Below the pieces are notes generated by a model that did not search any database, was not told where the DNA came from, and saw only the letters and a program-made list of their open reading frames with translations. This document shows, piece after piece, positions 36,767 to 54,061 of a DNA stretch of 64,000 bases. Origin of the DNA: an uncultured Alistipes sp. (GTDB lineage: Bacteria > Bacteroidota > Bacteroidia > Bacteroidales > Rikenellaceae); assembly GCA_949283205.1 (NCBI GenBank), contig CASDSD010000001.1:1-64000 (forward strand), read 5' to 3'. The position numbers and the translations under genes are program-made. Numbering within the stretch: the first letter of the stretch is position 1; each line of letters opens with the position of its first letter.

Positions 36767-38026
36767 TTATTTTAGTATCAGCACGTCGTGGTCGCCGAAG
36801 TTGTCGTACGACGAGGTTATCACGCGTTCGCCCGCGTCGAGACCCTCCACGACCTCGTAATACTGCGGGTTCTGGCGGCCGATGCGTATCGGGCGGCGGT
36901 GCGCCTTCTCGCCCGAGGCGTCCACGACGTATATCCACGAGCCTCCCGTCGACTGGTAGAACGAGCCGCGCGGGATCATGATCGACTCGGTGGGCTGCCC
37001 CAGCTGCAGGTTGAGATAATAGGTCTGGCCGCTGCGGATATTCTCCGGAATGTCGCCCGTGAAGACGAAGTCGGCCTTGAACTGCCCCTCGCGCACCTCG
37101 GGATAGACCTTGCGCAGGAGCATCTCGAAACGCGTCTCCTGACGCTCGAACGAGGCCGTGAGGCCCATCGTCACGCGGTCGATATAGTGTTCGTCGATCT
37201 GCGCCGTCACCTTGTAGGCCGACAGGTCGTTCACCTGACCGATAGCCGTACCCTGCCCTACCGACTGTCCGAGTACGATGTCCAGCATACCCACCTCGCC
37301 GTCGATCGGGGCCTTCACCTTGAGGTTGTCGACACGCTCGCGGATGAGCTGCATGTTGAGCGTCATCGAGTGGAGGCTCTCCTCCATCTGCCCCACCTGG
37401 TTCGAGCGGAAGAGCGAATCCTGACGCTGTTTCTCGATGTTGAGCGTGCGCTTGTTCAGCGCCAGTTCGTAGTCCTCCTTGGCCTGCATCCACTCCTCCT
37501 GCGAGAGGAGCTCGTTCCTGTAGAGCCGTTCCTTGCGCTCGTAGTCGCGGCGCTTGCGCTCGACGTCGATATCGAGCTGCAACTGCTCCTGCCGCAGCGA
37601 CAGGCGCTCCTGCTCCATCGAGATGAGGGTGTTGCGCAGGATGTTCTGCTTCTCGGCCAGGTCGGCCTCCGACTGCAGGATCTGCATGCTCAGCGAGTTG
37701 TTCGACATCTCGATAATGACGTCGCCCTTTTTGACCTTCGTGCCCTCCTCGGACACGATACGCTCCACGACGCCCGACTCAAGGGGCGAGAGCTGCACCG
37801 TCGTGATGGGCTGCACCGTGCCCGTAAGGCGCACGTAGTCGTTGAACTCGCCCGCCTCGACCTCCGAGACGGTCACCACGTCGGCATCCACGCGCAGCGT
37901 CGAGGCGTTGTCGCGCAGCAGAAGCCACAGGACGAATACAAGGAACACGCCGCCGAAGGCGTATGGCAGGTTCTTCATCTGCAGGAGGGCTCTCCAGCCC
38001 GTCTTCTTTTCGAGTTTGATATCCAT
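36767..38026 (-). CDS. Membrane-fusion (HlyD/MacA-type) adaptor protein
   Basis: Encodes 419 aa. One N-terminal anchor helix lies at about residues 21-41 (YAFGGVFLVFVLWLLL). The first half of a lipoyl/barrel-sandwich domain follows (VRLTGTVQPITTVQLSPLES, GTKVKKGDVII), then a long coiled coil at about 110-235 rich in E/Q/R. The second lipoyl half is VKAPIDGEVGMLDIVLGQSV, followed by beta-barrel and membrane-proximal domains. Adaptors of this type link the inner-membrane permease to the TolC-like channel. It is second in the operon, 68 bp after the TolC-like gene. Confidence 0.93.
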   Translation of the reverse strand: MDIKLEKKTGWRALLQMKNLPYAFGGVFLVFVLWLLLRDNASTLRVDADVVTVSEVEAGEFNDYVRLTGTVQPITTVQLSPLESGVVERIVSEEGTKVKKGDVIIEMSNNSLSMQILQSEADLAEKQNILRNTLISMEQERLSLRQEQLQLDIDVERKRRDYERKERLYRNELLSQEEWMQAKEDYELALNKRTLNIEKQRQDSLFRSNQVGQMEESLHSMTLNMQLIRERVDNLKVKAPIDGEVGMLDIVLGQSVGQGTAIGQVNDLSAYKVTAQIDEHYIDRVTMGLTASFERQETRFEMLLRKVYPEVREGQFKADFVFTGDIPENIRSGQTYYLNLQLGQPTESIMIPRGSFYQSTGGSWIYVVDASGEKAHRRPIRIGRQNPQYYEVVEGLDAGERVITSSYDNFGDHDVLILK

Positions 38027-38094
38027 AGCTATATGTTTTTATTTATTATCTATCCGTTTGCTCACTCCGATGTCCGGCATCGCATCTTTCGGCC

Positions 38095-39420
38095 CTACCG
38101 GCGGATCAGAGGCTCGCCGTTGTAGTAATCGACCATGCGGCACTTTATTATATACTGCAGCCGCACCTGCAGCAGGTCGGAACGCGCCTGCAGCAGGTTG
38201 TTGGCCGCCGTCTGCAGCTCGAGGACCGAGACCATGCCCTCGGAGAACTTCTGCGACATGCTGCGGTATGCCAGCTCGTTGGCCCGCACCTTCTTCTGGC
38301 CCTGCACGTACTGCTTGCCGTAGTTCTGCATCTCCTGATAGGTCTGCGTCACCTCGCTCTCGAGCGTGCGCAGCAGCTCCTCGTGCTGCAGCACGGCGTT
38401 GTCGAAGCTGAGCTTCGCCTTGTGCTTCGAGACGCGGCGGCCCAAACCCGAGAAGATCGGTATCGACATCGACACGCCCACATAGGAACCGCGGTTGTTG
38501 CGCAGCTGGCGGAAGAAGTGGTCATAGTTCGAGCCGTCGTCCAGATTGGTGAAGTAGTTGGTGCTGTACCCGCCCGAAAGGCTTATCGAGGGGAGATAGC
38601 GGCCCTTTGCCGTGGCGTAGTTGATACGGTAGTAGCGGTTGTTCATCTCGGCCGCACGCACCTGGGGATTGAACTCCAGGGCATACTCCAGCACCTGCGA
38701 CAGCGGCTCGCCCACCATCACGCCGTCGATGTTCACGTTCGTATCCACCTCGAACGGCTCCCCCTGCGGGTAGTTCATCACCCTGCGCAGGGCGATGAGA
38801 GCCAGCGCGAGGCTGTTCTGCTGCTGCGTGAGCAGGTAGTCGTAGTTGGCCACCTGCGCCTCGATCTCCGCCACGTCGGCCGGGGCCTTGTCCCCCAGCT
38901 CGTAGTGCATACGCACCTGCTCAAGCTCCGTGCGGCTCGCCTCGAGCTGCTCGCGCGCTATATCGACGGCGCCCGTATAATATACCACGTCGAAGTATGC
39001 CGACATGGTGTTCATCGCCACCTCGTCGCGCGCAAGCTGCAGCTCCTCGACACCCTTGGCGCGAAGAACCTTCGTCGCGCGGATAGAGTTTATGGTCGAG
39101 AGGCCGTTGAAGACCGTGATCGAACCCGATATACCGTACGAGTTGCTGAAGGTGGAGGTTGTGGTGTAGGTATTTGTCTCGGGGTCGATCGAACGGCCGA
39201 AGCTCAAATTACCCCCGGTCGAGGTACTCACCGAAGGCAGTGCCGACGCCACGGCGTTGATGTAGTCCTGCCGCGTACTCTCCAGCGAATTGACCTGCTG
39301 CCCCACCGACGTCGAGTGCTCGACGGCATAGGCCATGCAATCCTCCAGAGACATGCGCTCCTGCGCCTGCAAAGGTGTCAATAAAATAGACACCGCAAGG
39401 GTTAAAAATGCTCGTTTCAT
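38095..39420 (-). CDS. TolC-family outer-membrane efflux protein
   Basis: Encodes 441 aa. The ATG at 39420 (MKRAFLTLAVSILLTPLQAQ) is preferred. The longer reading starts at a TTG four codons upstream. After the signal peptide come the paired TolC helices: LSLEDC-like start (MSLEDCMAYAVEHS), the repeated 'N-P-Q-V-R-A-A-E' turn (LEFNPQVRAAEMNN) near residue 225, and long heptad-rich helices ending in ARSDLLQVRLQYIIKCRMVDYYNGEPL. It forms the outer-membrane exit duct of the exporter encoded downstream. It is first in the operon, divergent from the sigma-54-type regulator. Confidence 0.93.
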   Translation of the reverse strand: MKRAFLTLAVSILLTPLQAQERMSLEDCMAYAVEHSTSVGQQVNSLESTRQDYINAVASALPSVSTSTGGNLSFGRSIDPETNTYTTTSTFSNSYGISGSITVFNGLSTINSIRATKVLRAKGVEELQLARDEVAMNTMSAYFDVVYYTGAVDIAREQLEASRTELEQVRMHYELGDKAPADVAEIEAQVANYDYLLTQQQNSLALALIALRRVMNYPQGEPFEVDTNVNIDGVMVGEPLSQVLEYALEFNPQVRAAEMNNRYYRINYATAKGRYLPSISLSGGYSTNYFTNLDDGSNYDHFFRQLRNNRGSYVGVSMSIPIFSGLGRRVSKHKAKLSFDNAVLQHEELLRTLESEVTQTYQEMQNYGKQYVQGQKKVRANELAYRSMSQKFSEGMVSVLELQTAANNLLQARSDLLQVRLQYIIKCRMVDYYNGEPLIRR

Positions 39421-39560
39421 ATCTGTTTTCAATTGTTTTTCCGTTTGCCCCTCATATGTACCAAAGACATGCCAACCGGATCAACATGCTTACTGACAAC
39501 ATCTTAACAAAACAGTCCCTCCGGAAAACCGTCTAAAAATTTGACACTGCGATAAATTTT

Positions 39561-39608: not shown

Positions 39609-40973
39609 ATGGCCAAACAGGGATCAATACTCATAGTGGACGACAACAAGGCGATACTCTCGGCCGTGAAGCTGCTCGCGGACAAATATTTCGAGAAGGT
39701 GCTGACCCTCTCGTCGCCCAACTCGCTCGTCTCGCTCATGCGTACGGAACGCCCCGACGTGGTGCTGCTCGACATGAACTTCAACGCCGGCATCAACACC
39801 GGAAACGAGGGCATCTACTGGCTGCAGCAGATCCTCGACCGCTACCCCGCGACCAAGGTGGTGCTCTTCACCGCCTATGCCGACATAGACCTGGCGGTGA
39901 AGGCGATGAAGATGGGCGCCGTGGACTTCGTGGTCAAGCCGTGGGACAACGACAAGCTCATCGCCTCGCTGCGCAACGCCTACCGTCTGGCCACACACCG
40001 CACCGACGGCAGGAAGAACACCGCCAGGAGCACAACCGCCGCCCCCATGCTCTGGGGCGGGAGCGAGGCCATGGCACGCATACGCCGGATCGTGGACAAG
40101 GTTGCCGTCACCGACGCCAACATACTCATCACGGGCGAGAACGGCACGGGCAAGGACATGCTCGCACGCGAGATACACCGTCTGTCGCTGCGGCGCAACG
40201 AGCCCTTCGTCGATGTCAACGTAGGGGCCATCCCCGACACGCTCTTCGAGAGCGAGCTCTTCGGCCACGTCAAGGGGGCCTTCACCGACGCCCGCAGCGA
40301 CCATGCCGGCAAGTTCGAGACCGCCTCGGGCGGTACGCTCTTCCTCGACGAGATAGGCAACCTGCCGCAGCACCTGCAGGCCAAGCTGCTCACGGCGCTG
40401 CAGAACCGCAGCATCATGCCCCTGGGCGGCAACACCCCGCGCACGGTAGACATACGCCTCATCGCAGCCACGAACCGCGACCTGCAGGCGATGGTCGCCG
40501 AGGGGGCTTTCCGCCAGGACCTGCTCTACCGTATAAATACGATCCATATCGAGCTGCCGCCGCTGCGCCGCCGCAGGGAGGACATAGTACCCCTGGCGGA
40601 GATGTTCCTCGCGCGCTACGCCGAAAAGTACGGCAAGCAGGACGTAATAATGACGCAGGCGGCAACCGACCGTCTCACCGCATGCCGCTGGGAGGGAAAC
40701 GTACGCGAGCTGCAACACGCCGTGGAGAAGGCCGTCATCATGAGCGATGACGGCGTCATACGCCCCGACGCCTTCCCCGCGCCGACCGTAGAGGCCGCCG
40801 CCGACAGTCACGATGCCGGGGACGGGGGCGATGCCGCCACCCTCGAGGAGATGGAGCGCCGCATGATCCGCCAGGCCATCGCCGCACACAACGGCAACCT
40901 CACCCTCGTGGCCCAGCAGCTCGGCATAACGCGACAGACGCTCTACAACAAGATCAAGCGTTACGGACTATGA
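39609..40973 (+). CDS. Sigma-54-dependent response regulator (NtrC family)
   Basis: Encodes 454 aa in three domains. The receiver domain (1-120) has DD at 11-12, phospho-acceptor Asp near 55 in VVLLDMNFN, and Lys in VVKPWD. The AAA+ domain (about 145-375) has Walker A GENGTGKD near 176, Walker B GGTLFLDEIGN and the arginine region NTPRTVDIRLIAATNRDL. The Fis-type HTH (about 410-454) contains LVAQQLGITRQTLYNKIKRYGL. The sigma-54 contact loop reads GAFTDA instead of GAFTGA, a variant I have seen in other Bacteroidetes. It probably activates the divergent exporter operon from a sigma-54 promoter. It overlaps the kinase gene by 4 bp. Confidence 0.95.
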   Translation: MAKQGSILIVDDNKAILSAVKLLADKYFEKVLTLSSPNSLVSLMRTERPDVVLLDMNFNAGINTGNEGIYWLQQILDRYPATKVVLFTAYADIDLAVKAMKMGAVDFVVKPWDNDKLIASLRNAYRLATHRTDGRKNTARSTTAAPMLWGGSEAMARIRRIVDKVAVTDANILITGENGTGKDMLAREIHRLSLRRNEPFVDVNVGAIPDTLFESELFGHVKGAFTDARSDHAGKFETASGGTLFLDEIGNLPQHLQAKLLTALQNRSIMPLGGNTPRTVDIRLIAATNRDLQAMVAEGAFRQDLLYRINTIHIELPPLRRRREDIVPLAEMFLARYAEKYGKQDVIMTQAATDRLTACRWEGNVRELQHAVEKAVIMSDDGVIRPDAFPAPTVEAAADSHDAGDGGDAATLEEMERRMIRQAIAAHNGNLTLVAQQLGITRQTLYNKIKRYGL

Positions 40974-42274
40974 AGAAACGCAAGATCCCATACAGCCGGA
41001 TCATCTTCGACATCCTGCTCATCGTCGCAGCCACGGCCATAACCACGGCCGCGCTGCTGCTGCGCAAGCACTCGATACTCATCGCAACGGTGCCGATGCT
41101 TATCTATGCGGTGCTGTCGCTTTTCAACATATATCAGGAGATAGTAAGGCGCATATCGTTCATCTTCAACGCCGTGAAGAACGACGACTACTCCTTCCGC
41201 TTCGCCGACACTCCCGCCGTCACCGACTACGCGCTGGTGAACTACTCGCTCAACCGCATAAAGGAGGTGCTCGACTCGGCCAAGCTGCAGATACGCGAGA
41301 AGGAGAAGTACTTCGAACTGATAATGGAGTGCGCCAACATAGGCATCATCACCGTAATGAAGAACGGCTCGGTGGTGCAGGCAAACAGCAAGGCGACAAA
41401 CCTTTTCGGGCTGATGCGCCTGACGCACATAAACCAGCTGCGCCCGATATCGGAGACGCTGGCCGACGCCCTGCACAAGATACGCAACGGCGAGCAGACG
41501 CTCGTACGCTATGTCAACGAGACGGGCGAGATGAGCCTGTCGCTCAACTGCTCGGACTTGAAGCTGGGCGAGCGCGACTTGCGGGTAATAACCATAGGCG
41601 ACGTAAACAACGAACTGAGTGACAAGGAGATCGAGTCGTGGGACAAGCTCACGCGCATCCTTACGCACGAGATAATGAACTCGCTGGCTCCCGTCACCTC
41701 GATAAGCCATACGCTGCTGACCTCGGCACCCGACGGCAAGGAGATGCAAAGCGGCCTGCAGACGATCCACGCCACGAGCAAACGGCTGATGTCGTTCGTC
41801 GACTCGTTCCGACAGGTGACGCGTCTGCCCGCGCCGCAGAAGACGCCCTTTTACCTTGTGGAGCTGGTGAACGAGGCGGCCTCTCTGAACAACCTGCACG
41901 GCGAACAGCTCGAGACGGAGATCGACCCCGCCGACACGATGCTCTATGCCGACCGCATGCTCATGTCGCAGGTTATGGTCAACCTGATCAAGAACGCATG
42001 CGAGGCGACAGCCGCCCTCGGCGACGACAGACGCATCGGCGTACGTTCGTTTATCGACGGTAACGAGCGGGTGAACATAGAGGTGAGCGACAACGGCGAC
42101 GCCATCCCGCCCGAGATCGCCGAGAACATATTCACACCCTTTTTATCGACCAAGACAGACGGCTCGGGCATCGGCCTCGCCGTCTCGCGACAGATCGTAC
42201 ACATGCACGGCGGCACGCTGCGCCTGACGCACAACCGTGCCGGACATGTCGCATTCACAATAATCCTCGACTGA
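40970..42274 (+). CDS. Sensor histidine kinase (NtrB-like)
   Basis: Encodes 434 aa. Two N-terminal helices lie at about 12-30 and 37-55, with almost no periplasmic loop, so it probably senses a membrane or cytoplasmic signal. A PAS-like region follows (about 105-215; LIMECANIGIITVMKNGSVVQANSKA). The H-box is LTHEIMNSLAPVTSISH with His near 234, and ATPase motifs are VNLIKNACEAT (N box), SDNGDAIP (G1) and GSGIGLAVSRQIV (G2). Coupling through the overlapping ATGA to the NtrC-type regulator shows they form one system. It is convergent with the second two-component pair. Confidence 0.95.
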   Translation: MKKRKIPYSRIIFDILLIVAATAITTAALLLRKHSILIATVPMLIYAVLSLFNIYQEIVRRISFIFNAVKNDDYSFRFADTPAVTDYALVNYSLNRIKEVLDSAKLQIREKEKYFELIMECANIGIITVMKNGSVVQANSKATNLFGLMRLTHINQLRPISETLADALHKIRNGEQTLVRYVNETGEMSLSLNCSDLKLGERDLRVITIGDVNNELSDKEIESWDKLTRILTHEIMNSLAPVTSISHTLLTSAPDGKEMQSGLQTIHATSKRLMSFVDSFRQVTRLPAPQKTPFYLVELVNEAASLNNLHGEQLETEIDPADTMLYADRMLMSQVMVNLIKNACEATAALGDDRRIGVRSFIDGNERVNIEVSDNGDAIPPEIAENIFTPFLSTKTDGSGIGLAVSRQIVHMHGGTLRLTHNRAGHVAFTIILD

Positions 42275-42356: not shown

Positions 42357-43049
42357 TCAATCCACCTGGAGCTTGTATCCCACGCCGCGGGCATTCACTA
42401 TCGACACCGAGCCGTCCTCCTCGAGACGGTGGCGCAGCTTGGTGATGAAGACATTGAGGCTGCGGGCATTGAAGTAGCTGTCGTCGCCCCACACCTCCAT
42501 GAGGATGGTGCGCGTATCGACCACCTCGTTCATGCTGCGGCAGAGCATCGCCAGCACCCGTGCCTCGCGGTTGGGCAGCACGCAGTCGCCCTGCGCCGAT
42601 CCCGAAAGTGTCCAGTTCAACGTATTGAAGCGGAACCGCCCGAAGGAGAACTCCACGGGGGCGGGCACCGCCGCCGCACTCCGCGCCGCCAACGCCCGCA
42701 CGCGCGCCAGCAGCTCGGTCATGGCGAAGGGCTTGCGCAGGTAGTCGTTGCCGCCGGTGTCGAAACCGCGCACCACGTCGTCGGCCGACGATCGGGCCGA
42801 GAGGAAGAGTATCTGCACCCCGGCATCCGCCTTGCGCATATGCTCCGCAAGCGTGAAACCGTCCATCGCCGGCATCATTATGTCGGTCACCACCACCCGC
42901 GGCGAGAGTGCGAAGAACGACCGCAGACCCTCGTGTCCGTCCGCGGCCCCCGCGCACGTGAAGCCCGCGGCACGCAGCGCATCACAGACGATGCGCAGCA
43001 GCGTCGGCTCGTCCTCAACCACCAGCACATCTACCCTATCCTCTTCCAT
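42357..43049 (-). CDS. OmpR-family response regulator
   Basis: Encodes 230 aa. The receiver domain has ED at about 12-13, phospho-acceptor Asp near 55 in RVVVTDIMMPAMDG and Lys in YLRKPFA. The winged-helix DNA-binding domain (about 130-230) has PNREARVLAMLCRSMNEVVD, the recognition helix NARSLNVFITKLRHRL, and the wing NARGVGYKLQVD. It overlaps the kinase gene by 14 bp. It is the likely binder of the tandem TTAAC boxes upstream of the divergent GLPGLI genes, since OmpR-family proteins typically bind direct repeats with 10-11-bp period. Confidence 0.95.
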   Translation of the reverse strand: MEEDRVDVLVVEDEPTLLRIVCDALRAAGFTCAGAADGHEGLRSFFALSPRVVVTDIMMPAMDGFTLAEHMRKADAGVQILFLSARSSADDVVRGFDTGGNDYLRKPFAMTELLARVRALAARSAAAVPAPVEFSFGRFRFNTLNWTLSGSAQGDCVLPNREARVLAMLCRSMNEVVDTRTILMEVWGDDSYFNARSLNVFITKLRHRLEEDGSVSIVNARGVGYKLQVD

Positions 43050-44456: not shown

Positions 44457-44464
44457 CAAAGATA
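44457..44464 (-). promoter_or_regulatory. -7 element of the kinase/regulator operon
   Basis: Minus-strand TATCTTTG (44464-44457), 33 bp before the ATG at 44424. The TTAAC array begins about 39 bp upstream of it, so the regulator may also act on its own operon. Confidence 0.6.
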
Positions 44465-44502: not shown

Positions 44503-44579
44503 TTTAACACTATTTAACACTTCGGCCGGGGCTTTAACTCCCGGTTAACATTTCGGGACCGCACCGCATGCGAACTTTG
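44503..44579 (+). promoter_or_regulatory. Phased TTAAC boxes and -7 element, GLPGLI gene 1
   Basis: TTAAC cores lie at 44504-44508, 44514-44518, 44534-44538 and 44545-44549 (steps 10, 20, 11). The first two are parts of identical TTTAACAC repeats. The -7 element GAACTTTG is at 44572-44579. The last core starts exactly 27 bp before the -7 element and sits where the -33 box should be. No normal -33 is present, as expected for a promoter that depends on an activator. Confidence 0.75.
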
Positions 44580-44608
44580 CAGTGTCAAACTCAAACACTC
44601 GACAACAC

Positions 44609-45508
44609 ATGAAAAAGTTCATCATTGCAATCGCCGCTATTGCCGCCTGCGCGGCAAGCCCCGCGGCACAGGCACAGCAGACACCGCAACGCTTTATCCT
44701 CTTCGACACCGAGAAGGGTGCCACATCCTACCAGACGGGGCAGCTGGAGCGGACCGAGGTGGGGCGCGCAACCCTCAAATGCGCCTACCGCCTGCGCTGG
44801 GCCAAGGACCGCGCACATGACAAATGGATCGAACAGACATTCATCCTGCAGTGCGGCCCCGCCATGTCGAAGTTCTACGACCAGCGTGTGCGCGCCATCG
44901 ACGACATGCTGCAGACGGCCGCCCCGTCCGACCTGCAAAGCAACCCCTCGGCCTACTCGGGCGGCGACCGCCTCACGATATTCCAGAACATGCCGACGGG
45001 AGAACTGACCCTCACCGACTCCTTCTCGGCCGAATTCTACCGCTGCGTGGAACCCATGCCCGCATTCGAGTGGCGCATAAGCGGAGATACGTGTACGATT
45101 CTGGGGTATGCGTGCCGCCGCGCCGAGTGCGACTTCCGCGGCCGCAGCTACACGGCATGGTTCGCGGAGGAGATACCCGTAAGCTGCGGCCCGTGGAAGT
45201 TCCACGGCCTGCCGGGGCTCATCATGGCCGTCGAGGACAGCGAGGGCGACTACTCCTACCGCATCGAGGGCATAGAGCAGTGCAACGAGGCAATCGACAT
45301 CGACACGCGGCAATATATCGACTCTACACGCGAGAAGTATCTCCGCCTCAAGTATCAGTATCTGCTCGACCCGATAGGTTTCTTCAGCCGCAACAGCGGC
45401 GTCGACATCAACATCACCAACGAGGACGGCACGCGCAACACAGCCCTCGAGGAGCAGCTGCGCAGCGACTCGCTCCCGTACGATTTTCCCGAGCGCGACT
45501 ACCGCTGA
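44609..45508 (+). CDS. GLPGLI family protein 1
   Basis: Encodes 299 aa from the ATG at 44609 (MKKFIIAIAAIAACAASPAAQA, signal peptide). The family name motif appears as WKFHGLPGLIMAVED near residue 200, preceded by the conserved ILGYACRRAECDFRGRSYTAWFAEEIPVSCGP region. GLPGLI proteins are exported Bacteroidetes proteins of unknown function, often in tandem and beside TonB-dependent receptor-like genes, as here. It is the first gene after the phased TTAAC array. It is 35-45% similar by eye to the next gene in the central region, indicating tandem duplication. Confidence 0.92.
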   Translation: MKKFIIAIAAIAACAASPAAQAQQTPQRFILFDTEKGATSYQTGQLERTEVGRATLKCAYRLRWAKDRAHDKWIEQTFILQCGPAMSKFYDQRVRAIDDMLQTAAPSDLQSNPSAYSGGDRLTIFQNMPTGELTLTDSFSAEFYRCVEPMPAFEWRISGDTCTILGYACRRAECDFRGRSYTAWFAEEIPVSCGPWKFHGLPGLIMAVEDSEGDYSYRIEGIEQCNEAIDIDTRQYIDSTREKYLRLKYQYLLDPIGFFSRNSGVDINITNEDGTRNTALEEQLRSDSLPYDFPERDYR

Positions 45509-45514
45509 GCGGCA

Positions 45515-45580
45515 TTAACATTCGTTAACATTTATTAACCGACCGTTAACACGCCGCAGGGCCGTATCGGGGTAACTTCG
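45515..45580 (+). promoter_or_regulatory. Phased TTAAC boxes and -7 element, GLPGLI gene 2
   Basis: TTAAC cores lie at 45515-45519, 45525-45529, 45535-45539 and 45546-45550 (steps 10, 10, 11). The -7-like TAACTTCG is at 45573-45580, again starting exactly 27 bp after the start of the last core, with no recognisable -33. Confidence 0.75.
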
Positions 45581-46530: not shown

Positions 46531-49167
46531 ATGAGCATGATACACAAAATAGCATTCGCCGCCGCGGCCGTCATCCTCTCGGCCGCCGCCGTCAGCGCAC
46601 AAACGCCCTGCCGCATCACGGGAACGGTCACCGACGCCGCGACGCGGCAGCCCGTGGCGGGCGTGGTGGTAAAATTCACCGACGCCGAGGGCAACCTCAC
46701 GGCCTACTCCACCACCGACGGAAAGGGCGCATACACCATCCTGCGCAGGAGCGTACCAGGGGCCGGCTGCCGCCTCGTATTCTCGATGCTGGGCTACGCC
46801 ACGCGCGAGGTCGTACCCGACAGCTGGGCGGAGCCCGTAAACATCCCCCTCGAAGCCGCCGCCACGGCCATACGCGAGGTGGTCGTCAAGGCCCCGCGCA
46901 TATCGATGCAGGGCGACACCATATCATACACCGCCAGCGCGTTCACCGATGCCGACGACAAGACCCTCTCGGACATACTGAAGAAGATGCCGGGGCTCGA
47001 GGTCGAGGAGTCGGGCCGCGTGAAGTATCAGGGCGAGTCGGTCGACAAGCTCTACATCGACGGCGTAGACATGCTGGGCGACCGCTACTCGCTGGCCACG
47101 AAAAACATCTCGCCCCAGGACATAAAGGGCGTAGACGTCATGGAGAACCACCAGCCCAAGAAGATCCTGCGCGACGTGGAGTTCTCGGAGAAGGCCGCGC
47201 TCAACATACGCATGGACAGCCGCGTCCGGAACCGGTGGTCGGGCTCTGCCGCCGCCGCAGGCGGTTTCTCCCCAGCGCTGTGGAACGGCTCGCTTTTCGC
47301 AATGTGCATCGCCAAAGGCTTCTCGACGATGAACTCCGCCAAGAGCTGCAACACGGGCGACGACATCGGCGCCGAGGCGGGATATAGGGGGTCGGGCTAT
47401 TCTCTCCCGCAATACATATCCGTAGGCACCTCGGCGGCACCCATAGGCCGCATGCGCACACGCTTCAACACCTCGCACCTGTACAACACCTCCAACATGA
47501 TACGTCTCGGCGAGGATTACAGCCTGCATGTCGACGCCTCGTACCTGTACGAACGTCTCACCTCGGACGACGCCTCCGCAACGACATACTACGTGGGCGG
47601 CGACTCGATCTCCACGCGCAGCGCGTCCCGCGCCGCCGATGCCGCCCATACGCTCGACGCCTCGGTGCGCCTGCAGGCCAACACCGACCGCACATACCTC
47701 AACAACACCCTCTCGGCGCGCATCGTATGGCAGGACGTATGGCGCAGCGACGACGGCACCTATCCCAACATGCAGCGCGCCCACACCCCGTCGCAGAGCG
47801 TCTCCGACAACCTCGAACTCACGAAACGCTTCGGCCGCCGTACCCTTACCATCCGCTCGGCGAACAGCTACATGCGCACGCCGCAGACGCTCTCGGTCGA
47901 ACGCGACACCTCGCAACAACGGCAGACCCTCGACGCCCGGGCCCTCCGTTCGGCCACAAGCACCTCCCTCGTATGGCGTTTCGGCCGCTGGGGCATCGGC
48001 CTCAACGCGGCATTCACGCAACTCGTGCGCTCGCTCCGCTCCTCGCTCACGGGACTCGACCCCGCAGCCGGGACAGAATCGGCCGGCAATGCCGCCGACA
48101 CCCCCGAAACGGCCCTCCCGATGCAAAACGACATGCGCCTCTCGATGACGCAGGCCGACCTGTATCCGTCGCTGACGTACGACTCTCCCACGGTAAAACT
48201 CGCCTTCAACGTCCCGTTATCGGGCTACATATACTCCATACGCGACCGCATCGGCAACCATACGCGCCGCATCGACGACATGACGTTCGCCCCCACGCTC
48301 ACGGCAAGACTTCTGGCCACGCCCATGCTCACCCTCTCGGCCTCGGCATCATACAAACACGCGCCTCTGGCACAGGAGAACTTCTACTGCGGAGCCATCC
48401 TCTACGACTACCGCTACCTGCGGCGCGGGTACGAGATCATCGACAATGACTCCTCGCTTGCCGCCACCCTCCGCGCCGAATACAAGAACCCACTCTCGTC
48501 GATATTCGCCAACGTGTCGGCAGGTCATACGCGCTCACGCCTGAACGCAACCCCGTCGCAGGACTTCGTGGGCGAGTATATCGTCACGACAGCCATCGCA
48601 GTCCCATACCATAGCTCCGTGACATTCGTCGGCGGCAACATAAGCAAGGGTATCGACGAGGTGAAGGGCAAGATCGGCGTCACCGCGTCGTGGAACCTCT
48701 CCAGCACGGGCATGATACAGCAGGGCGAATACAACCCATACCGCATGCACACCCTCTCCGTCGCCCCCTCGTTCGACCTGACACCCCTGCGCTGGCTGGG
48801 CGTCGCCTACCAACTCGGATACTCCCGTTCGCTGCTCAAGGTGGCAATGACGGGACACGACTCCGCCACGACATCCCTCTCGCAGTCACTCACCGCCGAC
48901 ATCTCCCCCGTGGAGGGGCTGCGCCTCCGCCTCGGGGCCGAACACTACCGCACGCAGATATCGACCGCCTCGCACAAGAACTCAATCCTCTTCGACGCCT
49001 CGGCCGCATACACCTTCCGCAACGGATGGGAGCTCTCCCTGACAGCCCGCAACCTGCTCGACGAGCGCGAATATGCCTACACGCTCTTCGACGGCCTGAG
49101 CCGCTCGTCGGCCTCGTTCGCCATACGTCCGCGCAACATCCTGCTCAACCTGTATGTAAGGTTCTGA
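46531..49167 (+). CDS. Outer-membrane receptor with carboxypeptidase-like N-domain
   Basis: Encodes 878 aa. After the signal peptide (ending AAVSAQ) a carboxypeptidase-regulatory-like beta-sandwich (ITGTVTDAATRQPVAGVVVKF) covers about residues 25-110. A plug-like segment follows (LSDILKKMPGLEVEESGRVKY, VDKLYIDGVDMLGDRYSLA), then a long beta-barrel with alternating aromatic strands and the terminal residue Phe (LLNLYVRF). This is the TonB-dependent-receptor-like group commonly paired with GLPGLI genes, and it lacks the longer SusC features. Its ligand is unknown. The GLPGLI proteins may assist it or its cargo. Confidence 0.9.
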   Translation: MSMIHKIAFAAAAVILSAAAVSAQTPCRITGTVTDAATRQPVAGVVVKFTDAEGNLTAYSTTDGKGAYTILRRSVPGAGCRLVFSMLGYATREVVPDSWAEPVNIPLEAAATAIREVVVKAPRISMQGDTISYTASAFTDADDKTLSDILKKMPGLEVEESGRVKYQGESVDKLYIDGVDMLGDRYSLATKNISPQDIKGVDVMENHQPKKILRDVEFSEKAALNIRMDSRVRNRWSGSAAAAGGFSPALWNGSLFAMCIAKGFSTMNSAKSCNTGDDIGAEAGYRGSGYSLPQYISVGTSAAPIGRMRTRFNTSHLYNTSNMIRLGEDYSLHVDASYLYERLTSDDASATTYYVGGDSISTRSASRAADAAHTLDASVRLQANTDRTYLNNTLSARIVWQDVWRSDDGTYPNMQRAHTPSQSVSDNLELTKRFGRRTLTIRSANSYMRTPQTLSVERDTSQQRQTLDARALRSATSTSLVWRFGRWGIGLNAAFTQLVRSLRSSLTGLDPAAGTESAGNAADTPETALPMQNDMRLSMTQADLYPSLTYDSPTVKLAFNVPLSGYIYSIRDRIGNHTRRIDDMTFAPTLTARLLATPMLTLSASASYKHAPLAQENFYCGAILYDYRYLRRGYEIIDNDSSLAATLRAEYKNPLSSIFANVSAGHTRSRLNATPSQDFVGEYIVTTAIAVPYHSSVTFVGGNISKGIDEVKGKIGVTASWNLSSTGMIQQGEYNPYRMHTLSVAPSFDLTPLRWLGVAYQLGYSRSLLKVAMTGHDSATTSLSQSLTADISPVEGLRLRLGAEHYRTQISTASHKNSILFDASAAYTFRNGWELSLTARNLLDEREYAYTLFDGLSRSSASFAIRPRNILLNLYVRF

Positions 49168-50427: not shown

Positions 50428-50943
50428 ATGAAAGAGACGATCAACGTAAACATCGCACAACAGGCCTTTACAATGGACATGGATGCTTACTCGGCTCTCA
50501 ACGCCTACCTTGACGACATAAGCCGCCGCCTCCCGCAGTCGGATACAGAAACCATGTCCGATATCGAGAGCCGCATAGCGGAGATCTTCCGCGAGAAGGT
50601 TCCCTCGCCCATGATGGTCATAACATATGGTGTTGTCCGCAGCACGATGGCGCAGATAGGCAGTCCCGAGGACTTCGGCGCGGCGAACCGCCCCCTCAAC
50701 TCAGAGACACGCGCCACAGAGGCGCCGCGGCGCTTCTACCGCTCGCGCACGGACCGATCCATAGCCGGTGTGTGCGGAGGTATGGCCGCATACTTCAACC
50801 TCGACTCGACGCTGCTGCGAATACTGGCCATACTGTTCATCTTCCTGGCCGGCTCGACGCTGTGGCTCTACCTTATCCTGTGGCTCGTAATTCCATACGA
50901 GCCCGAAACGGGAACCGCCCGAAACAACGAATACACAAAATAA
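50428..50943 (+). CDS. PspC-domain membrane protein (short)
   Basis: Encodes 171 aa. An acidic soluble N-terminal region (about 1-95; ALNAYLDDISRRLPQSDTET, DIESRIAEIFREK) is followed by the PspC domain: RSRTDRSIAGVCGGMAAYFNLDSTLLRI at about 105-133, then two membrane helices (ILAILFIFLAGSTLWLYLILWLVIPY). PspC proteins take part in envelope stress responses. It is first of four co-directional genes: the PadR start is 15 bp downstream, then DUF2807 and a long PspC protein follow. Its N-terminal region recurs at the start of that longer PspC protein. Confidence 0.9.
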   Translation: MKETINVNIAQQAFTMDMDAYSALNAYLDDISRRLPQSDTETMSDIESRIAEIFREKVPSPMMVITYGVVRSTMAQIGSPEDFGAANRPLNSETRATEAPRRFYRSRTDRSIAGVCGGMAAYFNLDSTLLRILAILFIFLAGSTLWLYLILWLVIPYEPETGTARNNEYTK

Positions 50944-50958
50944 AACGGAGGAAAAGTC

Positions 50959-51288
50959 ATGAACGAAGAAAATGTAAAAGTCCAGATGCGAAAGGGCATC
51001 CTCGAGTATTGCATCCTCGCCATACTCTCACGCGGGGACTCCTACGCGCCGAAGATCATCGCCGAGCTGAAGGCCGCGCAGATGATCGTCGTAGAAGGTA
51101 CGCTCTACCCTATCCTCACGCGACAGAAGAACGCCGGCCTGCTGACATACCGCTGGGAAGAGTCCCCGCAGGGGCCGCCGCGAAAGTACTACATGCTCAC
51201 CGAGGCGGGACGCGCACAGCTCGCCGCCCTCGACGAGGCCTGGGACGAGATGGTCGAACAGATACGCATCATCCGCCACGGGCAGTAG
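50959..51288 (+). CDS. PadR-family transcriptional regulator
   Basis: Encodes 109 aa, the small PadR type. The winged helix covers the whole protein: QMRKGILEYCILAILSRGDSY at the start, the recognition region VVEGTLYPILTRQKNAGLL near residues 45-63, the wing WEESPQGPPRKYYMLTEAGR, and a C-terminal dimerisation helix. It probably represses this operon by binding the inverted repeat at 50349-50367. The inducing signal is unknown but membrane stress is plausible from its neighbours. Confidence 0.93.
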   Translation: MNEENVKVQMRKGILEYCILAILSRGDSYAPKIIAELKAAQMIVVEGTLYPILTRQKNAGLLTYRWEESPQGPPRKYYMLTEAGRAQLAALDEAWDEMVEQIRIIRHGQ

Positions 51289-51333
51289 GACCGCCACCAC
51301 ACCACACAACGCATAACAACAATACACACACCC

Positions 51334-52230
51334 ATGAAAACAGCATTATTATCCATAACCGCACTCTGCGCCGCCACGTTGCTCGCCACATCGGCCTGCA
51401 CGGCAACGGCACGCACCAATGACGCATACGACGACATGGCCGCCGCCTCAATGTCGAAGATCACCGGCAGCGGCAACATCGTCACCCGCAGCGTCACCAT
51501 ATCGGACTACACGAAGATAGACGCCTCGCGCTCCGTAAAGGTCATCGTCGAGGAGCGTACCGGAAACCAGGCCCAAATCAAGGCCGACGACAACATCATG
51601 CCCTACGTCACGGTCAAGGTCGAGGGAGGCATCCTCAAGGCAGGCATCGACGATAAGATTCGGTCGCTGAGCAATGTCTCGATTACGGTGACCGTACCGG
51701 GCAACGGCAGAATCTCGGCCATCGACGCCTCGAGCGCTTCACAGGTCATTGTCGAGCCCGAGATCAAGAGCGACGAACTGCTTATCGACGTCTCGTCGGC
51801 CGCAAAGATAGAACTGGCAAAGAGCGACGTCGGAAAATGCGCCATCAACGCCTCGTCGGCCGCCAGGATCGAGGGCGCCATCAAGGCCGACCGCTGCTCG
51901 ATCGAACTGACGAGCGCCGCCAACGCCATGCTGGCGCTGCTGGCCGTGGAGTGCGAACTGTCGGCATCATCGGCAGCGAAGGCCGAACTGAGCGGCGAAG
52001 CGGGAGACATGGAGGTAGAGACCTCGTCGGCCGCCAATATCGACGCCCTGTCGCTCATCGCCCGCAATGTCGAGGCCGACGCCTCGTCTGGCAGCTCGAT
52101 AAAGATATCTTGCACGAAGTCGATCGACGCAAAGGCTTCGGCCGGAGGCTCGGTCAAGTATGCCGCCAAGGGAACCCTGTCGTCGGAGGAGAGACGCGCC
52201 TCGAGCGGCGGCAGCGTAAAGAAGTTATAA
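51334..52230 (+). CDS. DUF2807 (GIN-domain) exported protein
   Basis: Encodes 298 aa with an N-terminal export signal (MKTALLSITALCAATLLATS). Cys22 in TSAC could be lipidated but the lipobox is weak. The mature protein is built of short repeats of 'I-D-A-S-S-A-S/A' type: IDASSASQVIVEPEI, IDVSSAAKIELAKS, INASSAARIEGAIK, and LSASSAAKAELSGEA. These form the right-handed beta-solenoid turns of DUF2807 (putative autotransporter adhesin head, GIN domain). Location is probably periplasmic or surface. DUF2807 next to PspC and PadR is a recurring Bacteroidetes set and suggests an envelope-protective role. Confidence 0.88.
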   Translation: MKTALLSITALCAATLLATSACTATARTNDAYDDMAAASMSKITGSGNIVTRSVTISDYTKIDASRSVKVIVEERTGNQAQIKADDNIMPYVTVKVEGGILKAGIDDKIRSLSNVSITVTVPGNGRISAIDASSASQVIVEPEIKSDELLIDVSSAAKIELAKSDVGKCAINASSAARIEGAIKADRCSIELTSAANAMLALLAVECELSASSAAKAELSGEAGDMEVETSSAANIDALSLIARNVEADASSGSSIKISCTKSIDAKASAGGSVKYAAKGTLSSEERRASSGGSVKKL

Positions 52231-52279
52231 GAGAATCACGACACGATCAACAGATCAATGCAATAAAAACCCGATCGCC

Positions 52280-54061
52280 ATGAACGAAATCAAGAAATGC
52301 AGCATAGCCGGCGTATCGTTCACGCTCGAATACGACGCCTATGACGCCCTCAACGCATATATCGAATCGCTCACCGACACCTACAAGGACGACCCTGCGG
52401 GCGAGGAGATCATCGCCGACATCGAGGCGCGCATCGCCGAACTGATCCTCTCGGCGCAGCCGGCCGACGCCATCATCGCCCGCCCGCTGATCGACAACAT
52501 AATCAAGCAGCTGGGCTCGGCCTCGGAGATAGACGAGGAGCACAACGAATACACAGAACAGACGGCACGCCAGGCCGAGACCACCGACCGCAACGGCAAT
52601 CCGCGCATCCCGCGCCGCCTGTACCGTGACCTGCAGAACGGCAAGCTGGGCGGCGTCTGCGCCGGTCTGGCCAACTACTTCGACACCGACCCCACGTGGA
52701 TACGTCTGGCCATGTTCGCGCCGCTGCTGCTCACCATCTTCGGCTCGCTGCGCATATTCCACTGGTTCATACCCTTCACCTCGAACCTCTTCGGGGTGTT
52801 CGTCCTCGGCTACATAATCATGTGGTTCGCCGTGCCGCCCGCCTCGTCGGCACGCCAGAAACTCGAGATGAAGGGCGAGCGCATCACCGCCCGCAGCATC
52901 CGCGAGAACACCCCCGCCGCGGCCGCTCCCGTCGAGCCGGAACGCACGCTCATAGCCAACGTCGTCTCGGTGCTGGGAAAGATACTGCTCATCATACTCA
53001 AGATCTTCGTGGTGCTGCTGCTCATAGGACTCGTACTCGGCACCACCGTACTCGGGTTCGTCATGCTCTTCAGCATCCCGCTCTTCGCGTTCGACTTCAT
53101 AACGGGACTGGCATTCCTCTGCTTCATACTGGTCATCATCATCCCGCTCATCGTACTGATCTACCTGTCGATCATGCTGCTGGTGACGAAAAAGCCGAGC
53201 GGAGGGTTCCTGCTCGCGTCGCTCATCCTGTGGATCATCCTGCTGGCCGGCATGACCGTCTCGGCCATCAAGTCGCCCGTGCGTTTCCCCGACCAGATAG
53301 AGAACGCCTTCGAAGCTGCCTTCTCGAACGACTCGGACAAGCTCTACGAGGCCTTCAGCGAGGAGGAGATAGCCGACTTCCGCAGCAAGATAGGCGAAAC
53401 GTACGATCCCGACGCGGAGGCCGAGAAAGAGGCTGCGGCCTTATCGGAAGGCATCACCTCGAAGATAACCTTCACGATGGGCGACCGCACCGTGAACGCC
53501 ATCACCAAGGGCAACAGCCAGGTGGTCTTCTGCGGCAACAAGCGCGACGTAGATTTCTGCGGCGAGAGTCTGCGTTTCGATGACGGGAATACGCAGTTCG
53601 ACATCGCCAAAGGGCGCACAGTCAACATGGTCATGCATGACGACGGGTCGGTTGTCGTAATATGCGACGGCGATACCGTCAAGTGCGACACCAGGGTTGA
53701 GCAGAGAGAGGCCGGCGCCACCGTTACGTGCGGCTTCACCATCGACGACGTACAGGTACGCTACTCGTGCGGTCCGGCCGTCGACAGCGCCGCCATAACA
53801 AAAGAGACCATCAGCGATATCATGGGCGCTGCGGGCAGTGTTGTCGGTGCCGCAGGCAGTGTGGCCGGCGCCGCAATGGAGGTTGTCGGCGCCGCGGGCA
53901 GCGTGGTAAAGGAGAGCCTCGGCGTGGGCAAGGCTGCCGGCGAGGCGATGCAGCAGGCTGCCGAGACAATGGAGGAAGCGGGCGAGGCGATGCAGCAGGC
54001 CGCCGAAACGATGCAGCAGGCAGGCGACCTGGCCGAAGAGGAGTCCGCGAAGAGAGAATGA
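52280..54061 (+). CDS. Long PspC-domain protein with repeat-rich tail
   Basis: Encodes 593 aa. The N-terminal soluble region (1-110) resembles the short PspC protein (DALNAYIESLTDTYKDDPAG). The PspC domain is at about 114-190 (LYRDLQNGKLGGVCAGLANY). Four further membrane helices lie at about 225-345, and a beta-rich region at about 390-495 has repeated VNMVMHDDGSVVVICDGD-type strands. The C-terminal 80 residues are very unusual: repeats of GAAGSVVGAAGSV, then an 11-12-residue repeat EAMQQAAETMEEAG / EAMQQAAETMQQAG that would make a long amphipathic helix or coiled coil. It is last in the PadR operon. Confidence 0.88.
   Translation: MNEIKKCSIAGVSFTLEYDAYDALNAYIESLTDTYKDDPAGEEIIADIEARIAELILSAQPADAIIARPLIDNIIKQLGSASEIDEEHNEYTEQTARQAETTDRNGNPRIPRRLYRDLQNGKLGGVCAGLANYFDTDPTWIRLAMFAPLLLTIFGSLRIFHWFIPFTSNLFGVFVLGYIIMWFAVPPASSARQKLEMKGERITARSIRENTPAAAAPVEPERTLIANVVSVLGKILLIILKIFVVLLLIGLVLGTTVLGFVMLFSIPLFAFDFITGLAFLCFILVIIIPLIVLIYLSIMLLVTKKPSGGFLLASLILWIILLAGMTVSAIKSPVRFPDQIENAFEAAFSNDSDKLYEAFSEEEIADFRSKIGETYDPDAEAEKEAAALSEGITSKITFTMGDRTVNAITKGNSQVVFCGNKRDVDFCGESLRFDDGNTQFDIAKGRTVNMVMHDDGSVVVICDGDTVKCDTRVEQREAGATVTCGFTIDDVQVRYSCGPAVDSAAITKETISDIMGAAGSVVGAAGSVAGAAMEVVGAAGSVVKESLGVGKAAGEAMQQAAETMEEAGEAMQQAAETMQQAGDLAEEESAKRE

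Follow-up and report, generated by a model that had tools for sequence, protein, structure and literature searches.

Each of the two GLPGLI genes in the window, i.e., the whole stretch of 64,000 nucleotides that was analysed, is preceded by a phased array of TTAAC repeats. These two arrays are very probably the operators of the OmpR-type regulator encoded divergently from them (Table 1), which is predicted to bind them and to activate both promoters in place of a -33 contact. At the level of DNA comparison, arrays of this kind go with this kinase/regulator family at the loci that were examined in the Bacteroidota.

Table 1. Features of the two-component and GLPGLI locus in the window
Feature	Position	Strand	Remarks
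OmpR/PhoB-type response regulator, 230 aa, proposed array binder	42357..43049	-	Response_reg and Trans_reg_C above Pfam cut-offs
Sensor histidine kinase, 462 aa	43036..44424	-	HisKA and HATPase_c above cut-off; overlaps regulator gene
-7-like box TATCTTTG of the kinase-regulator operon	44457..44464	-	Invariant in the window and two orthologues
Putative operator 1	44504..44549	+	TTAAC cores at 44504, 44514, 44534, 44545
-7-like box GAACTTTG	44572..44579	+	27 bp after last core start of operator 1; without -33 box
GLPGLI family protein 1, 299 aa	44609..45508	+	TIGR01200, 172.4 bits (cut-off 50)
Putative operator 2	45515..45550	+	TTAAC cores at 45515, 45525, 45535, 45546
-7-like box TAACTTCG	45573..45580	+	27 bp after last core start of operator 2; without -33 box
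GLPGLI family protein 2, 291 aa	45607..46482	+	TIGR01200, 162.8 bits (cut-off 50)
Receptor-like protein, 878 aa, third gene in the row	46531..49167	+	Pfam CarboxypepD_reg, CarbopepD_reg_2

An OmpR-type kinase/regulator pair divergent from the GLPGLI genes, as proposed in the first-pass annotation, is indeed present, with both genes on the minus strand and their Pfam domains above cut-off. The regulator combines a receiver domain (PF00072, 89.9 bits) with a winged-helix Trans_reg_C domain (PF00486, 59.6 bits), both above cut-off, which is the domain combination of the OmpR/PhoB family. The protein encoded behind the two GLPGLI genes carries its CarboxypepD_reg domain at the start, as in outer-membrane receptors; a domain search with the TonB-receptor barrel models gave no match to it.

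The same annotation had described four TTAAC cores ahead of each GLPGLI gene, at spacings of 10, 11 or 20 bp and with the last core starting exactly 27 bp before a near-consensus -7 element that lacks a -33 box, and all of this can be read directly from the sequence. The core spacings are 10, 20 and 11 bp in operator 1 and 10, 10 and 11 bp in operator 2. The -33 element of Bacteroidota sigma-A promoters is TTTG, and in neither window promoter was a TTG or TTTG found 22-26 bp upstream of the -7 box. The boxes themselves, GAACTTTG and TAACTTCG, each differ at one position from TANNTTTG, the sigma-A -7 consensus of the Bacteroidota given in the accessible text of PMC9723704.

The repeats stand out from their surroundings. 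None of 20,000 dinucleotide shuffles of the respective intergenic stretch equalled the number of 10/11-bp TTAAC pairs in either array. In the whole window, TTAACN5TTAAC with at most one mismatch was matched five times, two of these matches being reverse-strand readings of array 2, as compared with 0.84 expected, and five matches were reached in none of 100 shuffles. Exact matches in the 2.39-Mb genome also number five, i.e., three in the window promoters, one on contig C25 and one on contig C16; the reversed control gave none in the same 2.39 Mb. When the window was aligned with the orthologous loci L010 and L011, 19 of 20 core columns of array 1 and 20 of 20 of array 2 were invariant, as were 94 of 191 and 95 of 140 non-core columns, respectively. 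The cores of operator 1 are all kept in L011 and three of the four in L010, where one was lost; those of operator 2 are kept (4/4) in both loci. It is extremely improbable that the arrays merely reflect an intergenic composition rich in TTAAC or a non-functional promoter copy. The window promoters could in part be the product of a duplication, as the two GLPGLI proteins are paralogues with 36% identity. However, chance repeats are ruled out by the shuffles and by the reversed and shifted patterns (see below for the latter), and the conservation in orthologues and the recurrence across orders equally speak against such an origin.

The suspicion that the repeats go with the kinase/regulator family first arose from a second locus of the same genome, where an array is found beside a kinase of that family. 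This paralogous pair on contig C25 (L005/L072, G000:C25:56818-58796) comprises a kinase 46% and a regulator 52% identical to those of the window. Its own two-core TTAAC array is located 48 bp from a -7 box and sits between the kinase and a divergent secreted-looking protein, which is not a GLPGLI protein. To extend the comparison, 200 genomes of the same taxonomic family were searched with the window kinase. Among the matches listed, 63, including the window, scored at least 192 bits, and the next match below them scored 105 bits; only about eight to nine kinase candidates were scored per genome, and paralogues may be missing from the 63. An array, defined as two or more exact cores with a spacing of 10 or 11 bp, upstream of the kinase and on the strand facing away from it, was present in the divergent promoter of all 63 listed loci. 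It was present in the divergent promoter of none of 21 weaker kinase loci (90-126 bits), one of which (L126) has a single core pair within the locus but on the opposite strand; with a regulator match in only 10 of these 21, they are a better control for kinase loci in general than for near relatives of the regulator. Conservation in orthologous upstream regions, on which the first-pass annotation had staked its proposal, is found at these 63 of 63 family kinase loci and at 32 of 40 regulator loci sampled from the phylum. Short tandem units of the TTAACYCATT type also match the array pattern on contigs C2, C5, C9, C19, C24, C28 and C47 of genome G142 and on G184:C78; their appearance is that of a minisatellite and not of an operator.

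For the phylum sample, a regulator match at 1e-30 was obtained in 185 of 296 genomes, and 40 regulator loci, drawn from the top of the list as well as from lower ranks, were examined together with 5-kb flanks. Besides the 32 loci with an exact array on the divergent side, two (L205 and L206) have degenerate arrays there, and in six (L179, L182, L187, L198, L213 and L214) no divergent-side array was detected even with mismatches. Two of these six, L179 and L182, belong to the same order as the window and show high similarity. Over the 40 loci, TTAAC-TTAAC distances peak at 10, 11, 20, 21 and 31 bp (48, 14, 21, 14 and 11 pairs, respectively), as compared with a total of 13 pairs over the range of 12-17 bp. 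A GLPGLI gene or operon lies behind the array at 18 of the 32 array loci. It is the first gene at 15 of them, as recognised with a custom HMM and confirmed with TIGR01200 in four cases, and a later gene at L188, L192 and L201. Divergent GLPGLI members at L180, L186, L191 and L199 are recognised by TIGR01200. L202 reproduces the layout of the window, with two arrays that each head a GLPGLI gene.

The association was also approached from the DNA side, by scanning a named genome collection with the pattern TTAACN5TTAACN5-6TTAACN26TTTG and without any protein information. This blind scan yielded at least 119 stretches with at least 121 places, 0.89 Mb together, in a sample of undefined order. Of the stretches listed, 110 were taken as Bacteroidota, two are titled Algicola, and seven have titles that name other phyla (L247, L254, L274, L279, L307, L319 and L330). 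Among the matches listed, a regulator of the family is encoded divergently within 3.5 kb in 61 of the 79 places with at least 2.5 kb of upstream DNA, and 40 of the 101 places with at least 0.9 kb of downstream DNA have the start of a GLPGLI gene within that distance, a count that did not change with a rebuilt GLPGLI HMM. Sixty-four listed places have both flanks; both partners were found in 24 of them, the regulator only in 24, the GLPGLI gene only in two and neither in 14.

The arrays had been put forward as an operator and target set for GLPGLI proteins, with arrays 27 bp before the -7 box expected to go with GLPGLI genes in related genomes. This was examined in 12 genomes, ten of which had been chosen for arrays beside GLPGLI genes and two (G310 and G488) had not. 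They contain 51 GLPGLI genes above cut-off and 36 sites with two cores plus TTTG in the 27-bp register, as compared with five in the reversed control. With the register shifted by +5 or -5 bp, 12 or 6 sites were found instead of 36, the reversed control of the +5 shift giving 11; five of the 18 shifted-register sites overlap true arrays, i.e., G417:C11 in both shifts, and sites in G310, G302 and G287 on the opposite, kinase-facing strand. Fourteen of the 36 register sites, representing 13 arrays (one array in G393 matches the pattern twice), precede a GLPGLI gene within 1 kb, where roughly 0.02 would be expected by chance for all 36, and every one of the 12 genomes has at least one such site. 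All of these sites have 10-bp spacing (14/19 sites with 10 bp vs. 0/17 with 11 bp). Yet, even with operon neighbours included, the 27-bp pattern covers only 19 of the 51 GLPGLI genes; the other 32 have no site of this pattern within 1 kb upstream of themselves or of a GLPGLI operon neighbour, a count that applies to the 27-bp register only. Since, in addition, a third, weak GLPGLI match of the window's own genome, on contig C32, has no array, and since arrays also precede targets other than GLPGLI genes, an operator devoted to GLPGLI genes only is rejected. Thus, what stands of the proposal is that the arrays are conserved and that many of them, in the 12 genomes 14 of 36 register sites, lie before GLPGLI genes; what falls is their specificity, as the operator follows the two-component family.

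The geometry of the promoters was compared for 100 arrays from the 63 family loci and the 32 array-bearing phylum loci; these loci are related, and the counts are not independent. The distance from the last core to an exact TANNTTTG is 26 bp (1 array), 27 bp (13), 37 bp (20), 38 bp (19), 48 bp (3) or 66 bp (2). When one mismatch is allowed, 37 arrays fall at 27 bp, 21 at 37 bp, 21 at 38 bp and 3 at 48 bp, and minor distances of 25, 26, 49, 51, 54, 59, 65 and 66 bp are represented by one to three arrays each. Hence the main distances between array and -7 box step by helix turns. For 16 of the 100 arrays, no -7 box within one mismatch was found at 20-69 bp; five of these precede GLPGLI genes (L180, L181, L186 and L190) or are of the RprY-like kind. 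The constant distance of 27 bp seen in the window holds for 26 of the 33 arrays that head GLPGLI genes or operons, in a register that spans from Alistipes to other orders; the GLPGLI exceptions, besides the four just named without a -7 box, are L013 (38 bp), L183 (37 bp) and L191 (26 bp). It is not universal, as only 11 of 67 arrays with other targets have the -7 box at 27 bp and most of them, i.e., 39 of the 67 at 37 or 38 bp, lie one turn further upstream. There are two promoter architectures, which go with target type or lineage.

These classes differ in the -33 region. A TTG 22-26 bp upstream of the -7 box is found in 0 of the 37 promoters of the 27-bp class (one mismatch allowed), both window promoters included. 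It is present in 13 of the 20 promoters with a distance of 37 bp, in 5 of the 19 with 38 bp and in none of the 3 with 48 bp. Instead, 14 of the 19 promoters of the 38-bp class carry, 27 bp before the -7 box, a half-site that deviates from TTAAC at one position (TTCAC, TTTAC or TTAAA). Absence of TTG from the 27-bp class and its frequency in the 37-bp class are what would be predicted if a bound subunit replaces the -33 contact, and they favor the earlier suggestion that the regulator does so. In the proposed mechanism, regulator subunits would occupy successive TTAAC half-sites in head-to-tail order, one for each helix turn, with the proximal subunit on the -33 position, 27 bp before the -7 box. 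Phosphorylated through the kinase, this subunit would hold sigma factor and RNA polymerase on a target promoter that, with no -33 box and a weak -7 box, would be dependent on the regulator. This would switch on the two GLPGLI genes together and probably also the gene for the receptor-like protein that follows them. At other loci, the array is placed one helix turn further from the -7 box, and some of these loci have a -33-like element. The first array also precedes the promoter of the kinase and regulator genes, where it may take part in autoregulation.

Alternatively, the regulator could be a repressor, whose subunits on the proximal cores block RNA polymerase. According to the accessible text of PMC9603813, five GLPGLI genes are among 50 direct targets of PhoP in Riemerella anatipestifer, two of them repressed and three activated, which provides a precedent for repression but a larger one for activation. 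The lack of TTG precisely where the proximal core overlaps the -33 place, together with the weak -7 box, suits a promoter in need of help, and TTG is often present in the 37-bp class, though seldom in the 38-bp class. Repression is, therefore, considered quite improbable, and activation is the preferred reading.

Arrays are found before a range of other genes. The targets examined were 16 chosen first genes from the family and phylum sets and ten from blind-scan places with a regulator but without GLPGLI gene; several of these 26 had no model match, and the rest are mostly of secreted or envelope types. They include proteins with plug/TonB_C, CarboxypepD_reg, OMP_b-brl_3 or DUF1573 domains, thioredoxin-like proteins with DUF3738, peptidases S51 and M28, a protein with a T9SS sorting tail, and GLPGLI proteins. 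By eye, the first ORF behind the arrays at L220, L222, L249 and L319 encodes a small, Cys-rich, secreted-looking protein; a Pfam search with those of L220 and L222 gave no match, and all four are possible metal binders.

In the genus and the family, a further 20 array regions were examined that have no listed strong kinase match beside them. Genes judged lipoprotein-like by eye are located behind such arrays at L130, L131, L132, L137 and L140, and genes for receptor-like proteins at L138, L139, L142 and, again judged by eye, L144. The proteins encoded directly behind the arrays at L138, L139 and L142 are 27-28% related to the receptor-like protein of the window, which also has relatives at L102-L105. 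Several of the 20 regions have no gene behind the array. In ten matches, the -7 box was found at 37, 38 or 47 bp, and it was not found in the remaining ones, L138 and L144 among them. Possibly, these arrays belong to unlinked members of the regulon.

The recognition helix of the regulators was described by the pattern RS(L/M)xV(F/Y)(I/V/M)x(K/R/H)(L/I)R, which was framed after the alignment had been seen and which is present in 63 of 63 family regulators, 27 of 32 regulators of phylum loci with arrays and 0 of 10 control regulators. It is also present in all eight phylum regulators without exact arrays, those of the two degenerate loci included; hence, the pattern does not predict an array, and the regulators that use the TTAAC code may form a larger family than is apparent from the loci where arrays can be seen. 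The C25 regulator has the recognition-helix pattern of the window regulator and the same repeats in its divergent promoter, and it is possible, though on the whole unlikely, that the window arrays are mainly bound by this or another paralogous member of the family, the TTAAC code being common to several of them. The relatives' further arrays before lipoprotein-like and receptor-like genes, without a strong kinase beside them, would fit in with this. However, all 63 listed loci combine an array with a linked kinase, and within the window's own genome the two loci differ in architecture, with 27 bp to the -7 box in the window and 48 bp on C25. Binding by the linked, divergent regulator remains the preferred reading.

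Among the closest described systems is PhoP/PhoR of R. anatipestifer, in which an OmpR-type regulator, an adjacent kinase gene, a TTTAAC-type motif and GLPGLI targets come together. In the accessible text of PMC9603813, 583 DAP-seq peaks are reported for PhoP, with TTTAACA as the most conserved letters, and the direct targets include TonB-receptor genes as well as the region upstream of its own operon; the kinase gene lies next to the regulator gene, and a single promoter serves both (PMC5399024, likewise as far as accessible). In our own reading of these texts, both reports treat the same pair. In contrast to the window, no phased multi-core array or -7 register is described in the accessible parts of the two reports. 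The likeness is one of published description.

A second relevant system is HaeSR (PG0719-PG0720) of Porphyromonas gingivalis. According to the accessible parts of the reports, the regulon table of PG0720 includes the GLPGLI genes PG1492 and PG1908 (PMC8757827), and HaeR sites precede genes for TonB-dependent receptors (PMC3764172, PMC8757827). Thus, HaeSR is like the window system a two-component system with GLPGLI genes in its regulon and TonB-dependent receptor genes near its sites; it differs in that no TTAAC is mentioned in the accessible part of PMC8757827 and in that a gene for a DUF2874 lipoprotein is nearby. In view of these Riemerella and P. gingivalis reports, the association of OmpR-type regulators with TTTAAC and GLPGLI is not entirely new. 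In one open-access library, no description was found of the phased array, of its register in steps of a helix turn, of its association with the kinase locus or of its spread.

Head-to-tail binding of OmpR/PhoB-family subunits has an example in the PHO boxes of PhoB type, where, in the accessible text of PMC4415409, tandem subunits occupy 11-bp direct repeats and contact sigma. The window differs from these in its TTAAC core, its 10/11-bp steps, its Bacteroidota promoter and its envelope-type targets. The direct repeats at the window and at the recurring loci are about one helix turn (10/11 bp) apart, and the regulator is predicted to bind them. The PhoP box of Bacillus subtilis, TTAACA, is similar to the TTAAC core. 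Of the named models, that of RprY, from the RprY/RprX system of the Bacteroidota, is closest to the window regulator, but the score lies below the cut-off (NCBIfam NF051850, 191.6 bits vs. an equivalog cut-off of 370), and an identification as RprY is rejected. The regulators at L210-L212, L217 and L218 were taken as RprY-like from length and rank only; these loci have a TTAAC pair at 11 bp, and no GLPGLI ORF was seen in them with 5-kb flanks.

The fold of the GLPGLI proteins was approached with an AlphaFold model of the first one, built from 43 sequences. The model used is the best of five (pLDDT 70.8, pTM 0.62; the others at 57-61), and its residues 151-220 reach a pLDDT near 90 or more. The top Foldseek matches are PNGase F-II chains (4r4x, E 2.8e-10, query TM 0.51), followed by VioE, ependymin-related proteins and LolA/LolB with E values of 1e-4 to 1e-2 and query TM of 0.2-0.35. 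The matched part would be the N-terminal domain of PNGase F-II, because the Pfam model PNGase_F-II_N matches both window proteins, one over and one under cut-off, and because 7zgn, a PNGase deposited as Glpgli family protein, is matched at residues 125-195 (E 0.0045). A ligand-binding half-barrel is thus a lead offered by the model rather than a result.

From these observations, a broader scheme can be sketched, which is speculative and more doubtful than not. The Bacteroidota would share a TTAAC code, placed 27 + n x 10.5 bp from the -7 box and read by paralogous envelope-sensing kinase/regulator pairs. GLPGLI genes would be a main output of it, with a 27-bp register of their own in which the -33 contact is replaced. 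The GLPGLI proteins would be secreted carriers of the half-barrel type seen in the PNGase F-II N-domain, LolA and VioE, and would transfer a ligand of lipid-like or hydrophobic nature in concert with the receptor-like protein encoded in their operon. If true, this would make GLPGLI carriers part of an envelope-maintenance response and give a role to a protein family of unknown function, for which the Pfam model still bears that name. An envelope-related role of GLPGLI proteins is also what the other array targets point to. A conserved operator, its probable regulator and a promoter geometry that is fixed make it possible to test directly how GLPGLI genes are controlled, and the array can serve as a pattern for locating this two-component family in genomes without annotation.

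Some further genes of the window deserve mention. At 39609-42274, a second two-component pair, i.e., a sigma-54 activator and a kinase, adjoins the present one, and the ORFs ahead of it (36767-39432) resemble, by eye, an efflux adaptor and an outer-membrane channel. The region 50428-54061 encodes a PspC-domain protein and a DUF2807 head-GIN protein, as well as, judged by eye, a second PspC-like and a PadR-like ORF, and looks like an envelope-stress cluster.
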